Notes under the pieces: generated by a model
The model's database searches: none
Seen by the model: only the letters and a program-made list of their open reading frames with translations
What the model was told of the DNA's origin: nothing
Source: Bizionia myxarmorum
Lineage (GTDB): Bacteria > Bacteroidota > Bacteroidia > Flavobacteriales > Flavobacteriaceae
Length of the DNA: 64,000 nucleotides
NCBI RefSeq assembly: GCF_008086205.1
Contig: NZ_VSKK01000001.1
Coordinates: forward strand, 496,001 to 560,000
Direction: 5' to 3'
Position numbers and translations under genes: made by a program
In this document: piece after piece, positions 26,093 to 29,397 of the stretch
Position numbering within the stretch: the first letter of the stretch is position 1
Layout of the letters: each line of letters begins with the position of its first letter

Positions 26093-27991
26093 ATGAGTGA
26101 CGCTTTAAAACATGAATGCGGTATTGCACAAATTCGCTTATTAAAACCACTGGAATTCTATAAAGAAAAATACGGAAGCGCCTTTTATGGTGTTAACAAA
26201 ATGTATTTACTAATGGAAAAACAGCACAACCGTGGGCAAGACGGTGCTGGTTTTGCAAGTATTAAATTGGATACAGAACCTGGCGAACGTTACATTAGTC
26301 GGGTGCGTTCTATTGCCCAACAACCCATTCAGGATATTTTTGCACAAATAAATGAGCGCATTAATAAAGAACTTACTGAAAACCCTGAGTATGTTGATAA
26401 TGTTGCGCTTCAAAAAAAGAATATCCCGTATATAGGCGAATTATTTTTAGGCCATGTACGTTACGGAACTTTTGGAAAAAATAGTATAGAAAGTGTCCAT
26501 CCCTTTTTACGTCAGAATAACTGGATGCACCGAAACCTAATTTTAGCTGGAAACTTTAATATGACTAACGTGAATGAGCTTTTTGATGGCTTGGTACGCA
26601 TTGGTCAGCACCCAAAGGAAAAAGCGGATACGGTTACTATTATGGAGAAAATTGGTCATTTTTTAGATGATGCTGTTTCTAAAATCTATAAGAAGCTAAA
26701 ACAAGAAGGTTATAGCAAACACGAATGTTCTCCTTTAATTGCCGAACGCTTAAATGTTGCTAAAATATTAAGAAAATCTGCTAAAAACTGGGATGGTGGT
26801 TATGCTATGGCGGGATTATTAGGCCATGGTGATTCTTTTGTTTTGCGTGACCCTGCAGGTATTAGACCAGCTTATTATTATCAAGATGATGAAATAGTTG
26901 TTGTTGCATCAGAACGTCCTGTAATTCAAACGGTTTTTAATGTGAATTTTGAAGATGTCAAGGAATTAGAACCTGGACATGCTATTATTACTAAAAACTC
27001 TGGCGAAGTTGCCATTAAAAAAATATTAGAACCGGTTGAACGTAAAGCCTGTTCTTTTGAGCGCATTTATTTTTCTCGCGGTAGTGATGCCGAAATTTAT
27101 CAAGAACGTAAAATGCTAGGGAAATTATTAATGCCGAAAGTTTTAGAAGCCATTGATAATGATACCAAAAACACGGTATTTTCTTATATTCCAAATACAG
27201 CTGAAACCTCTTTCTTCGGAATGATTGAAACGGTTGAAGATCATTTAAACAAGAAAAAAACGGCTGCTATTTTAGCAGGAAATGGGCAATTAAGTGCGGA
27301 AGCGGTAACGCGTATTTTATCTGAGCGCCCACGAATAGAAAAAATAGCGATTAAAGATGTAAAACTGCGAACCTTTATTACTGAAGATAGCAGTCGTGAT
27401 GATTTAGTAGCGCATGTTTATGATGTAACCTACGGTGTTATTAAACCAACCGATAACTTGGTTATTATTGACGATAGTATTGTTAGAGGAACCACTTTAA
27501 AGATGAGTATTATTAAAATGGTAGACCGTTTGAATCCTAAAAAGATTGTTGTGGTTTCTTCTGCTCCTCAAATTCGGTATCCGGATTGCTATGGTATTGA
27601 TATGGCTAGAATTGAAGATTTAATAGCTTTTAGAGCCATGTTGGAATTATTAAAGGAGGCTGATAAATACCATATGATTAAGGAAGTTTATGACAAATGT
27701 AAAAAGCAAGTTGAATTAGAAGATAAAGATATTCGCAATTTTGTAACGGATTTATACGGACAGTTTTCTGCTGAAACGATTTCTAATAAAATAGCTGAAT
27801 TAATTTCTAGTGAAAATATCAATGCTGAAGTGGTTGCTATTTTTCAACCAGTAGAAAATTTACATAAAGCCTGTCCTAAAAACCTAGGCGACTGGTACTT
27901 TACAGGAAATTATCCAACTCCAGGAGGTAATCGCGTGGTAAACCGTGCGTTTATTAATTTTTATGAAGGCAACAAGGAACGCGCTTATTAA
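26093..27991 (+). CDS. purF: Amidophosphoribosyltransferase (long Bacteroidota form)
   Basis: First committed step of purine synthesis: PRPP + glutamine to phosphoribosylamine. The protein has 632 residues, longer than the ~500 of E. coli PurF but similar to the flavobacterial form. The N-terminal nucleophile is C9 in HECGI, to be exposed after removal of a short propeptide. Class II glutaminase motifs follow (GHVRYGTFGK; NRGQDGAGF). The PRPP loop VIIDDSIVRGTT lies at about 457-468. Extra length includes an insert after the N-terminal strands and a helical C-terminus. The length and insertions leave some room for a paralogue rather than PurF proper. Confidence 0.88.
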   Translation: MSDALKHECGIAQIRLLKPLEFYKEKYGSAFYGVNKMYLLMEKQHNRGQDGAGFASIKLDTEPGERYISRVRSIAQQPIQDIFAQINERINKELTENPEYVDNVALQKKNIPYIGELFLGHVRYGTFGKNSIESVHPFLRQNNWMHRNLILAGNFNMTNVNELFDGLVRIGQHPKEKADTVTIMEKIGHFLDDAVSKIYKKLKQEGYSKHECSPLIAERLNVAKILRKSAKNWDGGYAMAGLLGHGDSFVLRDPAGIRPAYYYQDDEIVVVASERPVIQTVFNVNFEDVKELEPGHAIITKNSGEVAIKKILEPVERKACSFERIYFSRGSDAEIYQERKMLGKLLMPKVLEAIDNDTKNTVFSYIPNTAETSFFGMIETVEDHLNKKKTAAILAGNGQLSAEAVTRILSERPRIEKIAIKDVKLRTFITEDSSRDDLVAHVYDVTYGVIKPTDNLVIIDDSIVRGTTLKMSIIKMVDRLNPKKIVVVSSAPQIRYPDCYGIDMARIEDLIAFRAMLELLKEADKYHMIKEVYDKCKKQVELEDKDIRNFVTDLYGQFSAETISNKIAELISSENINAEVVAIFQPVENLHKACPKNLGDWYFTGNYPTPGGNRVVNRAFINFYEGNKERAY

Positions 27992-28088
27992 AGCACTGTA
28001 AATAAGCTCATTATAGAAGTTTTTTTACTTTATAACGAATTTAATAGCAGTTCATCAGATTTATAGTTTATTACTATTAAAAATAATA

Positions 28089-28096
28089 TACATTAG
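28089..28096 (+). promoter_or_regulatory. -7 element of small-RNA unit 1
   Basis: TACATTAG, one mismatch to TAnnTTTG. It ends 4 nt before the ACCATAAC that begins the repeated unit, the same spacing as in unit 2. Confidence 0.5.
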
Positions 28097-28173
28097 AATC
28101 ACCATAACATAAGTAGGTTAAGTTCATGGTAGATTTGGGGCAAAAAAAGGTGAACTTCTGTTCGCCTTTTTTT
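28097..28173 (+). ncRNA. Putative small RNA, unit 1
   Basis: About 73 nt from ACCATAAC (28101) to a T-run at 28167-28173. The predicted structure has a 5-prime hairpin (ACCATAAC pairing with GTT-C-ATGGT, one bulged base, 13-nt loop), a single-stranded stretch AGATTTGGGGCAAAAAAA, and a 3-prime terminator stem GGTGAAC/GTTCGCC followed by T7. Unit 2, 320 bp downstream, is nearly identical. A short frame from the internal ATG is not conserved: a one-base A-run difference shifts it. An independent trans-acting or structural RNA is the best reading. The Flavo-1 motif is one Rfam model to test; I cannot confirm a match from memory. Confidence 0.65.
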
Positions 28174-28408
28174 ATTTAGTATCGTTATCTCTTGAAATCT
28201 TCTTAACATCTCCAAATAAAGTTGAATACTATTATTATTATCCTTTACTACACAAAATACCTTTTCTCTATAAAACGGTTTTGATAAAAATCGGTCAAAA
28301 AACTACCTATTTATAACTGTTTTCGCAGTTATTCGGAAAAAACTATTCGTTTATCCCAGTTTATAAGTCGTTTGTCTAATTTTTTATTAATTGGGATATA
28401 AGTAACCT

Positions 28409-28416
28409 TATATTTG
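28409..28416 (+). promoter_or_regulatory. -7 element of small-RNA unit 2
   Basis: TATATTTG, perfect TAnnTTTG, with a TTG 15 nt upstream (28391-28393). It ends 4 nt before ACCATAAC, so the predicted transcript starts at about 28421. Confidence 0.65.
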
Positions 28417-28491
28417 CTTCACCATAACATAAGTAGGTTAAGTTTATGGTAGATTTGGGGCAAAAAAGGTGAACATCTGTTCACCTTTTTT
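28417..28491 (+). ncRNA. Putative small RNA, unit 2
   Basis: Second copy of the 28.1 kb unit. Four differences are seen across ~70 nt: the bulged base in hairpin 1 (C to T), one A fewer in the linker run, one change in the terminator loop, and G to A in the terminator stem (GTTCACC). The last change turns a G-U wobble into a Watson-Crick pair. The loop ATAAGTAGGTTAA and the linker AGATTTGGGGC are unchanged. The better promoter and the perfect terminator stem suggest this is the more strongly expressed copy. Confidence 0.68.
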
Positions 28492-28695: not shown

Positions 28696-28723
28696 ACCTC
28701 ACAAGTTTTGAAAACCTGCGAGG
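28696..28723 (-). repeat. Hairpin repeat, wobble-complete on the minus strand
   Basis: Arms ACCTCACAAGTTTT and AAAACCTGCGAGGT around one G. On the minus-strand RNA the two mismatches become G-U wobbles, giving a 14-bp stem. I recall palindromes of the type CCTCGCAGGTTTT...AAAACCTGCGAGG as recurrent in flavobacterial genomes. It may act as a secondary terminator after sod. Confidence 0.5.
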
Positions 28724-28734
28724 TGTAAACAAAA

Positions 28735-28763
28735 AAAAAGCAAATCCTTTCAGATTTGCTTTT
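28735..28763 (-). terminator. Intrinsic terminator of sod
   Basis: Stem AAAAGCAAATC/GATTTGCTTTT with loop CTTTCA; a long A-run on the plus strand gives the T-tract on the minus strand. It lies 25 bp past the sod stop. Confidence 0.9.
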
Positions 28764-28788
28764 CATATAATAACAAGATTTTAGCTTC

Positions 28789-29397
28789 TTATTTCTCTTC
28801 AGCGTAACGTCTTTCAACCTCATTCCAATTAATGACATTGAAAAAAGCATCAATATAATCTGGACGTCTGTTTTGGTAATTTAAGTAATAAGCATGTTCC
28901 CAAACATCCAATCCTAAAATTGGTGTTCCACCACAACCAACACCTGGCATTAGTGGATTATCTTGGTTTGGAGTTGAGCAAATTTCAACTTTTCCACCTT
29001 TGTGAACACAAAGCCACGCCCAACCAGAACCAAATTGTGTAGCGGCTGCATTACTGAATTTTGTTTTAAATTCTTCCATGCTACCGAAAGCTGCTTCAAT
29101 AGCATCTTTTAAGTCGCCAGATAAACGTCCTTTTCCTTCTGGATTCATTACTTCCCAAAATAAAGAATGGTTATAAAATCCACCACCATTATTTCTAACA
29201 GCTTTGTTTTCCATGTCTAAATTAATCAGAATATTTTCAATCGTTTTTCCCTCTAAATCTGTGCCTTTAATAGCGTCATTTAATTTTGATGTATAACCAG
29301 CGTGGTGTTTAGAGTGGTGTATTTCCATTGTGCGTGCATCTATGTTCGGCTCTAAAGCGTCATAGGCATATTTTAATTTCGGTAATTCGAAAGCCAT
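28789..29397 (-). CDS. sod: Superoxide dismutase (Mn/Fe)
   Basis: Converts superoxide to oxygen and peroxide. Start set at 29397 ([18 protein letters not shown]), giving 202 residues; the longer frame adds 21 AT-coded residues unlike the family. Metal ligands are visible in HHSKHHAGY (His), NHSLFW (His) and [13 protein letters not shown] (Asp, His). The GSGWAWL motif is intact. The NQDNPLM segment favours a manganese or cambialistic enzyme over a strict iron form, but metal identity is not certain. There is no signal peptide, so it is cytoplasmic. Monocistronic with its own terminator, and divergent from the helicase gene. Confidence 0.96.

Follow-up and report, generated by a model that had tools for sequence, protein, structure and literature searches.

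Closest Described Systems

Two small RNAs of Bacteroides thetaiotaomicron, FopS and GibS, have been described, and the multicopy FopS is reported to pair near start codons and to repress SusC-type transporters (PMC11697453). The same paper names OmrA/B, Qrr, LhrC1-7, and the Neisseria sibling sRNAs as siblings which typically regulate overlapping targets; these belong to other phyla, and the RNA treated here is likened to them as a sibling sRNA by description, not by sequence. For Flavobacterium psychrophilum the main text of a transcriptome study presents 85 newly described RNAs, which were named Rfp1-89 (PMC9723704).

The sRNA family found at the present locus resembles FopS (PMC11697453) in being multicopy (one to six copies per genome here), in that it is predicted to pair with surface-protein mRNAs at their start codons, and in belonging to Bacteroidota. 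It is unlike FopS in that its copies stand mostly in tandem at a single locus between purF and sodA, whereas B. thetaiotaomicron has 14 paralogues, and in that its proposed seeds are a linker and the loop of a predicted hairpin, whereas the FopS seed is located in an unstructured 5' stretch. Like Rfp18 and the other Rfp RNAs it is a flavobacterial sRNA conserved beyond one species; in Rfp18, on the other hand, a third stem-loop is the predicted pairing region for metalloprotease mRNAs, while two hairpins are predicted for the units here. PMC9723704 mentions neither purF nor sodA in its main text, and as the comparison was made via that main text, the family may already be among Rfp1-89 under another name. 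A literature search, which included a search by sequence, found no paper on this sRNA, the sequence search yielding one unrelated paper.

The reading favoured here, with a probability of about 0.8, is that of a multicopy trans-acting sRNA of about 70 nt which would block translation initiation and share a regulator with its targets.

Two Units between purF and sodA

An earlier note on this DNA had described two near-identical units in the window, which is the whole stretch of 64,000 nt of the Bizionia myxarmorum genome that was analysed, and the sequence confirms them at 28101 and 28421, 320 nt apart from start to start. Copy 1 (28101..28173, plus strand, 73 nt) consists of a 5' hairpin, a single-stranded linker, and an intrinsic terminator, and copy 2 (28421..28491, plus strand) has 71 nt; they are matched by the covariance model R1 with E values of 1.1e-14 and 4.4e-14. 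The upstream neighbour is purF (26093-27991, plus strand) and the downstream neighbour sodA, which is convergent to the units and has its frame end at 28789; we take the two genes to be purF and sodA as recognised by eye from their translations, and both proteins were then used as tblastn queries. On the minus strand the sRNA array is separated from sodA by two terminator-like hairpins (28696-28724 and 28735-28764), which follow closely on the stop codon of sodA.

In both copies the predicted loop reads AUAAGUAGGUUAA (28109..28121 and 28429..28441, plus strand) and the linker AGAUUUGGGGC (28131..28141 and 28451..28461, plus strand). The loop is the proposed seed 1, which would pair with CUUAACCUACUUAUG-type sites around start codons, and the linker the proposed seed 2 for GCCCCAAAUCU-type sites. 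The copies differ just as the note had listed: C or U at nucleotide 25 in the bulge, a run of seven or six A mirrored by a run of seven or six T, one base of the terminator loop, and a wobble U-G pair versus a U-A pair in the terminator stem, with loop and linker identical. The stem and T-run with which the units were said to end are present in both. A terminator scan of the window listed the terminator of copy 1 (28142..28173, plus strand), which also covaries in relatives, and did not list the hairpin of copy 2 (28462..28491, plus strand, with its T-run), which is supported by the fold and is a perfect 14-nt inverted repeat. For both whole units, none of the 200 dinucleotide shuffles folded as well (z -4.2 and -4.3), while the first 42 nt folded alone gave z values of -0.5 and -0.7. 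The significance of the whole-unit fold thus comes from the terminator, and the predicted 5' hairpin is weak; set against the FopS-type layout of a single-stranded 5' seed followed by a terminator, the predicted fold here is a weak 5' hairpin, a linker, and a terminator.

A TAnnTTTG-type box 4 nt upstream, also claimed for both units, was found in both, and it is perfect in copy 2 (TATATTTG, 28409..28416, plus strand) but has one mismatch in copy 1 (TACATTAG, 28089..28096, plus strand). Among 215 non-redundant upstream stretches of the family this -7 box reads TTTG in 92 and TTAG in 64, with none in 56; it stands 4 nt upstream in 130 of the 215, as compared with a box in 81 of 2150 shuffled stretches. 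A sigma-70 scan, which does not cover this promoter type, found four promoters where 4.0 were expected. By sequence alone the units would thus appear to have their own promoter with the -7 box and an intrinsic terminator. Peptide coding by the units was rejected: the only short frame, broken by the change in the A-run as had been pointed out, runs to 17 codons in the first copy and 8 in the second, and the A-run length varies among copies.

Comparison with Known RNA Families

With all Rfam models no family reached its gathering score in either unit. The note had allowed for a known motif such as Flavo-1 or a new one; Flavo-1 was absent both at the gathering score and among the 25 matches up to E 10. 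The family 6S-Flavo likewise gave no Rfam match at gathering or up to E 10. Two weak matches were rejected, namely STnc40 (23.4 bits versus a gathering score of 45) and MicX on the other strand (E 0.005-0.007, 20-23 bits versus 75), the alignments of both resting largely on the terminator. The model of FopS (BTncRNA_FopS, RF04319) scored 20.4-20.9 bits versus a gathering score of 56, and since the units fail this score they are not filed as FopS members. The FopS consensus shares 14 identical nucleotides with the units, UUCAUGG and UAGAUUU with a gap of 3 nt, and 62 of 2000 shuffles were as good. FopS of Bacteroides is regarded as the nearest analogue, membership being unsupported.

Distribution of the Family

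Homologous units in related Flavobacteriaceae, which the note had named as a way of checking its reading, were found throughout the family. By DNA search the unit was matched in 28 of 36 other genomes of the same family (E 1.5e-5 or better; one of them, G020, only in part) and was not found at E below 1e-3 in 23 genomes from other families of the order. The covariance model R1, built from 52 copies and applied with a family search threshold of E 0.001, matched 163 of 199 Flavobacteriaceae genomes with one to six copies each. In a phylum sample of 395 genomes it gave 38 matches, 34 within the family (one of them, G546, marginal) and four outside it which were all marginal (E 0.006-0.048); at least seven family members among those listed were without a match, as were 337 further genomes.

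An exact 23-base core pattern retrieved at least 118 contigs with the unit, and as these were selected by that very match the invariance of their core is built in. Among the matches listed, the titles named either genera of the Flavobacteriaceae or, where no genus was given, Flavobacteriaceae, Flavobacteriia, or Bacteroidetes; viral contigs with the core numbered zero. On these contigs purF was directly upstream in 95 of the 104 loci with room for it, and in 87 of 103 sodA followed directly, in convergent orientation. They contained 247 copies with a median spacing of 206 (range 113-1343), and copies were never on mixed strands. Judged from this comparison the units of the window are probably genes of a Flavobacteriaceae-wide, tandemly multiplied sRNA family with a conserved gene neighbourhood.

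One genome (G010) has two extra diverged copies away from purF and sodA (L050:1171-1237 and L050:9795-9861), and the stretch between them includes an ORF of 460 codons and a protein of 1633 codons which looks secreted.

Conservation and Covariation

For statements on conservation, relatives were taken from BLAST, profile, and covariance-model searches. Across 60 distinct copies from relatives, near-invariance is seen in the first 42 nt, ACCAUARCAUAAGUAGGUUAAGUUYAUGGU(A)AGAUUUGGGGCAA. All 60 have C or U as the bulge base, with single exceptions in copies outside this set (in L157 and L114), and in the genus g146, probably Flavobacterium judging from how much of the sample it makes up, U replaces A at nucleotide 11 in the copies examined. 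Of 231 unique copies, 125 contain an extra A between hairpin and linker, and some genomes have the two forms side by side. Since this insertion breaks UAGAUUUG, the idea that UAGAUUUG mimics a promoter was rejected.

Two-sided changes were found in 8 of 20 pairs, 7 of the 8 in the terminator helix, and two-sided cells numbered 44 as compared with 18.6 in shuffles. The 5' stem showed mainly one-sided changes between A-U and G-U and one both-sided cell. Covariation, proposed earlier as a check of the RNA structure, is therefore seen in the terminator but hardly in the 5' stem, whose near-invariance is accordingly one of sequence.

This near-invariance of all 42 nt, stem included, could also be explained if the hairpin and linker were the site of an RNA-binding protein and pairing with mRNAs were incidental, and the RRM protein RbpB is reported to bind FopS in Bacteroides (PMC11697453). 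Protein binding, however, does not predict conservation of the antisense sequence in target leaders or constraint on third codon positions there, both of which are found (see below), and this explanation is considered rather improbable in comparison with a base-pairing sRNA.

A Small-Protein Gene as Probable Distant Partner

Partial same-sense matches from the DNA search led to a region beside a putative ABC-transporter gene, which we read as that of a peptide ABC-transporter ATPase. The opposite strand contains a small gene whose ORF has about 40 codons, with CATATTAGC as its promoter-like element and repeated sites of the GCCCCAAATCTACC...AACCTAC type in its leader. A reading of the 3' region of the ABC-transporter gene as a pure sponge was dropped, as the opposite strand holds this conserved ORF. 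In the source genome the small ORF is located at G000:C5:732810-732926, 208 kb from the units of the window. Its protein, of about 26-44 amino acids across the family, is without annotation, and four of the peptides scanned against Pfam and NCBIfam yielded nothing at the curated cut-off.

A profile of 16 peptides detected the small ORF in 95 of 199 genomes (E 0.01 or better). It occurs in 94 of the 163 genomes with the sRNA versus 1 of the 36 without (Fisher p 1.8e-10 with genomes counted as independent), the single exception, G075, being a weak match (E 0.0019); the profile search did not match it in the remaining 69 sRNA-bearing genomes. Neither sRNA nor small ORF was found in G007, G009, G015, G021, and G027. 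The ABC-transporter gene was matched in all five, most weakly in G009 and G021, where paralogues may have been hit. In G007, G009, G021, and G027 no small ORF was seen downstream of this gene, and the contig of G015 ends too early to tell.

Outside the region complementary to the sRNA, difference rates at codon positions 1-3 were 0.29, 0.19, and 0.47 (30 forms of 42 amino acids), and the peptide has a conserved hydrophobic, lysine-bearing C-terminus. This coding signature together with the conserved C-terminus indicates that the peptide itself is under selection.

A short peptide of this kind, possibly membrane-active, and complementarity extending over its start codon are also what a type I toxin-antitoxin-like pair would present, with the sRNA silencing the peptide. 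A type I antitoxin RNA is, however, encoded next to or opposite its toxin gene, while the two loci are 208 kb apart in the source genome; many genomes, moreover, have the sRNA with no small ORF detected, and other motif-linked candidate targets exist. Such a pair is thus considered improbable, and a trans-acting sRNA with more than one target remains the preferred reading.

Complementarity of the sRNA and the Small-ORF Leader

The loop GUAGGUUAAG and the linker GAUUUGGGGC of the sRNA have as many as four complementary sites in the leader and first codons of the small ORF. In distant members, for instance L333 with the leader CAATCCCAAACCAAACCAACTTAACCTACTTATG, the start codon itself lies within the complement of the sRNA loop. 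Against the 5' part of the sRNA, 77 leaders, which include members of the profile and count at least three genomes twice, gave a mean of -37.0 kcal/mol as compared with -19.1 for 51 control leaders taken from mechanical ORF starts of the window, and 66 of the 77 were below the lowest control. As the 16 members of the profile (A1) had mostly been found via the complementarity, they were excluded from a further test on 56 loci, which represent 56 of the 83 non-profile genomes with a match and comprise the best-scoring and chosen weak ones. Here 45 loci beat all 200 dinucleotide shuffles, with a mean of -36.0 versus -20.4 kcal/mol; 49 were reached by at most 2 of 200 shuffles and four by more than 10 (L321, L324, L372, and L374).

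Inside the site, difference rates at codon positions 1-3 were 0.22, 0.19, and 0.21 in the same 30 forms of 42 amino acids, the third-position rate of 0.21 contrasting with 0.47 outside. The leucine of the NL(P/S) motif is encoded by CTA in 40 of 44 distinct rows, two of which (L262 and L374) are not the N-terminal motif, as compared with 8.9% of 1524 leucine codons in the genes of the window. From this comparison of genomes, the complementarity of the sRNA to a distant mRNA is conserved. It is found to exactly the two single-stranded segments which the earlier note had singled out as those of a base-pairing sRNA, in the small-protein mRNA and in other leaders, and that proposal is supported.

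Linker-complementary cores averaged 2.1 per leader, with up to four, in 45 long ORFs, and 0.4 in 29 short ORFs; by the pattern used, 23 of 74 distinct leaders had no such core. The repeated cores would suit a small-ORF mRNA which mainly acts as a decoy, titrating the sRNA from surface-protein mRNAs with the short peptide being secondary, and so would the promoter motif which its leader has in common with the sRNA. The scarcity of cores in the short-ORF leaders and the evidence for selection on the peptide argue against this, and a predominantly decoy function appears unlikely, though less so than the protein-binding and toxin-antitoxin explanations; an mRNA that is a regulated target of the sRNA is preferred.

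A broad antisense enrichment across the genome was rejected, complements to the two segments being no commoner than reversed-pattern controls (184 versus 247 and 107 versus 244). As the seeds are nearly invariant, they leave little room for covariation between seed and target. When the pattern AACCTACTWATG was scanned in 32 genomes, most sites of the 70 loci were outside plausible leaders. By energy two loci stood out, L448 and L456, and a plausible gene was present at L448 only. This locus (identical to L526, genome G470) carries a secreted-looking gene with the promoter motif described below and a two-part site ending in CCTACTAATG, which matches the base changed in the sRNA of that genus. 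It would represent a single compensatory seed-target case and is the sole basis of the prediction that targets in genus g146 follow the change from A11 to U, to which ACCTACTAATG in L548 of the source genome is a counter-example.

A 95-nt element was observed in G012 (L055:1210-1304) and G036 (L056:1211-1304), 96% identical between the genomes, both of which have the sRNA and no detected small ORF. Its first part, GCCCCAAATCTACCATAACTTACC, is complementary to the sRNA, and a GCGCC...GGCGC hairpin comes next; in L055 the element lies beside ORFs which by eye resemble mobilisation genes. Possible interpretations are a sponge carried by a mobile element and a portion of a transfer origin.

A Shared Promoter Motif and Further Candidate Targets

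Expectation-maximisation on 73 upstream regions of the small ORF yielded TGcATTTcATCGA, and a separate run on the 215 non-redundant sRNA upstream stretches yielded GcatTTcAtCnA. At 8 bits the small-ORF matrix matched 66 of the 73 small-ORF upstreams and 95 of the 215 sRNA upstreams, compared with 67 of 4300 mononucleotide shuffles and 1 of 51 gene upstreams of the window; 78 of the 95 matches were at -73/-74 or -53/-54, two helical turns apart. The comparison thus points to a motif shared by the sRNA and its partner. In the window itself the match is weak for copy 1 (GCAGTTCATCAG, 28047..28058, plus strand, 6.0 bits, at -54) and very weak for copy 2 (GTCGTTTGTCTA, 28367..28378, plus strand, 2.6 bits, at -54).

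Exact motif sites in the whole genome numbered 13, equal to the 13 of the reversed control, and sRNA sites were present in three genes led by these motif sites, one being the small ORF, another a gene for a lipoprotein with a CAP domain (Pfam CAP, 1e-6) and the leader CCCAAATCTAAATTACCTACTAATG, and the third encoding a secreted-looking protein with CCCCAAATCAAATGAATAAACTTACCTACTTG. The shared motif (L471 at 1501, minus strand; G000:C5:1447940) is also located 277 nt upstream of a gene for a tetratricopeptide protein, which has a weak match to a sensor kinase (FimS) far below the cut-off and is a possible lead to the regulator system.

The two-part pattern CCCAAAT-N2-32-ACCTACT gave 99 matches in 23 genomes versus 29 for the reversed control. 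By reading, 54 of the 99 were the antisense strand of the sRNA, four were small-ORF sites, and 41 were others; set against the 29 of the control, these 41 are only a modest excess, with many due to chance. An ORF starts at the site in 20 of the 41, and the motif (13 bits or more, within 160 nt) was present in 10 of these 20 versus none of the 21 sites without an ORF (Fisher p 1.6e-4). The ten genes with motif and site make up seven gene families, four of the genes belonging to one family; two of the genes had first been met via the motif and L526 via the earlier pattern. By eye their starts resemble those of secreted proteins and lipoproteins, and one has leucine-rich repeats. ATG-AAA-AAC-CTA spells a common signal-peptide start, and as the site covers this sequence the share of secreted candidates is inflated. 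The ten further site ORFs without the motif may be targets or chance matches.

Proposed Mechanism

The favoured mechanism assumes that the loop and linker of the sRNA anneal to the leader and start codon of the small-protein mRNA, and in the same way to a few mRNAs of secreted proteins and lipoproteins, which would block the entry of the ribosome. One putative transcription factor binding TGcATTTcATCGA would drive both the sRNA and its targets and thereby form a feed-forward loop, and the tandem copies would raise the dosage to match a target with up to four sites. From the conserved complementarity and the shared motif we infer annealing, repression, a regulator, and the direction in which the loop acts.

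A more detailed version is advanced tentatively, as a possibility of somewhat better standing than a mainly decoy mRNA, yet still a doubtful one. In this family-wide circuit one transcription factor would switch on surface and secreted proteins, the micro-protein, and the tandem sRNA which represses them. The mRNA of the micro-protein, with up to four sites, would have one of these in codons 5-12 (the NLPEQPT motif), where pairing would have moulded the protein, and would in addition act as a decoy which sets the dose of the sRNA.

Significance

To our knowledge the Flavobacteriaceae are abundant bacteria whose sRNA biology is little worked out. If the favoured reading is true, most of the family would possess an sRNA which is without an Rfam family and has predicted targets and a regulator motif, so that its function would be directly testable. 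The N-terminal codons of the micro-protein, doubling as an sRNA site, would then be a clear case of RNA regulation constraining the sequence of a protein.
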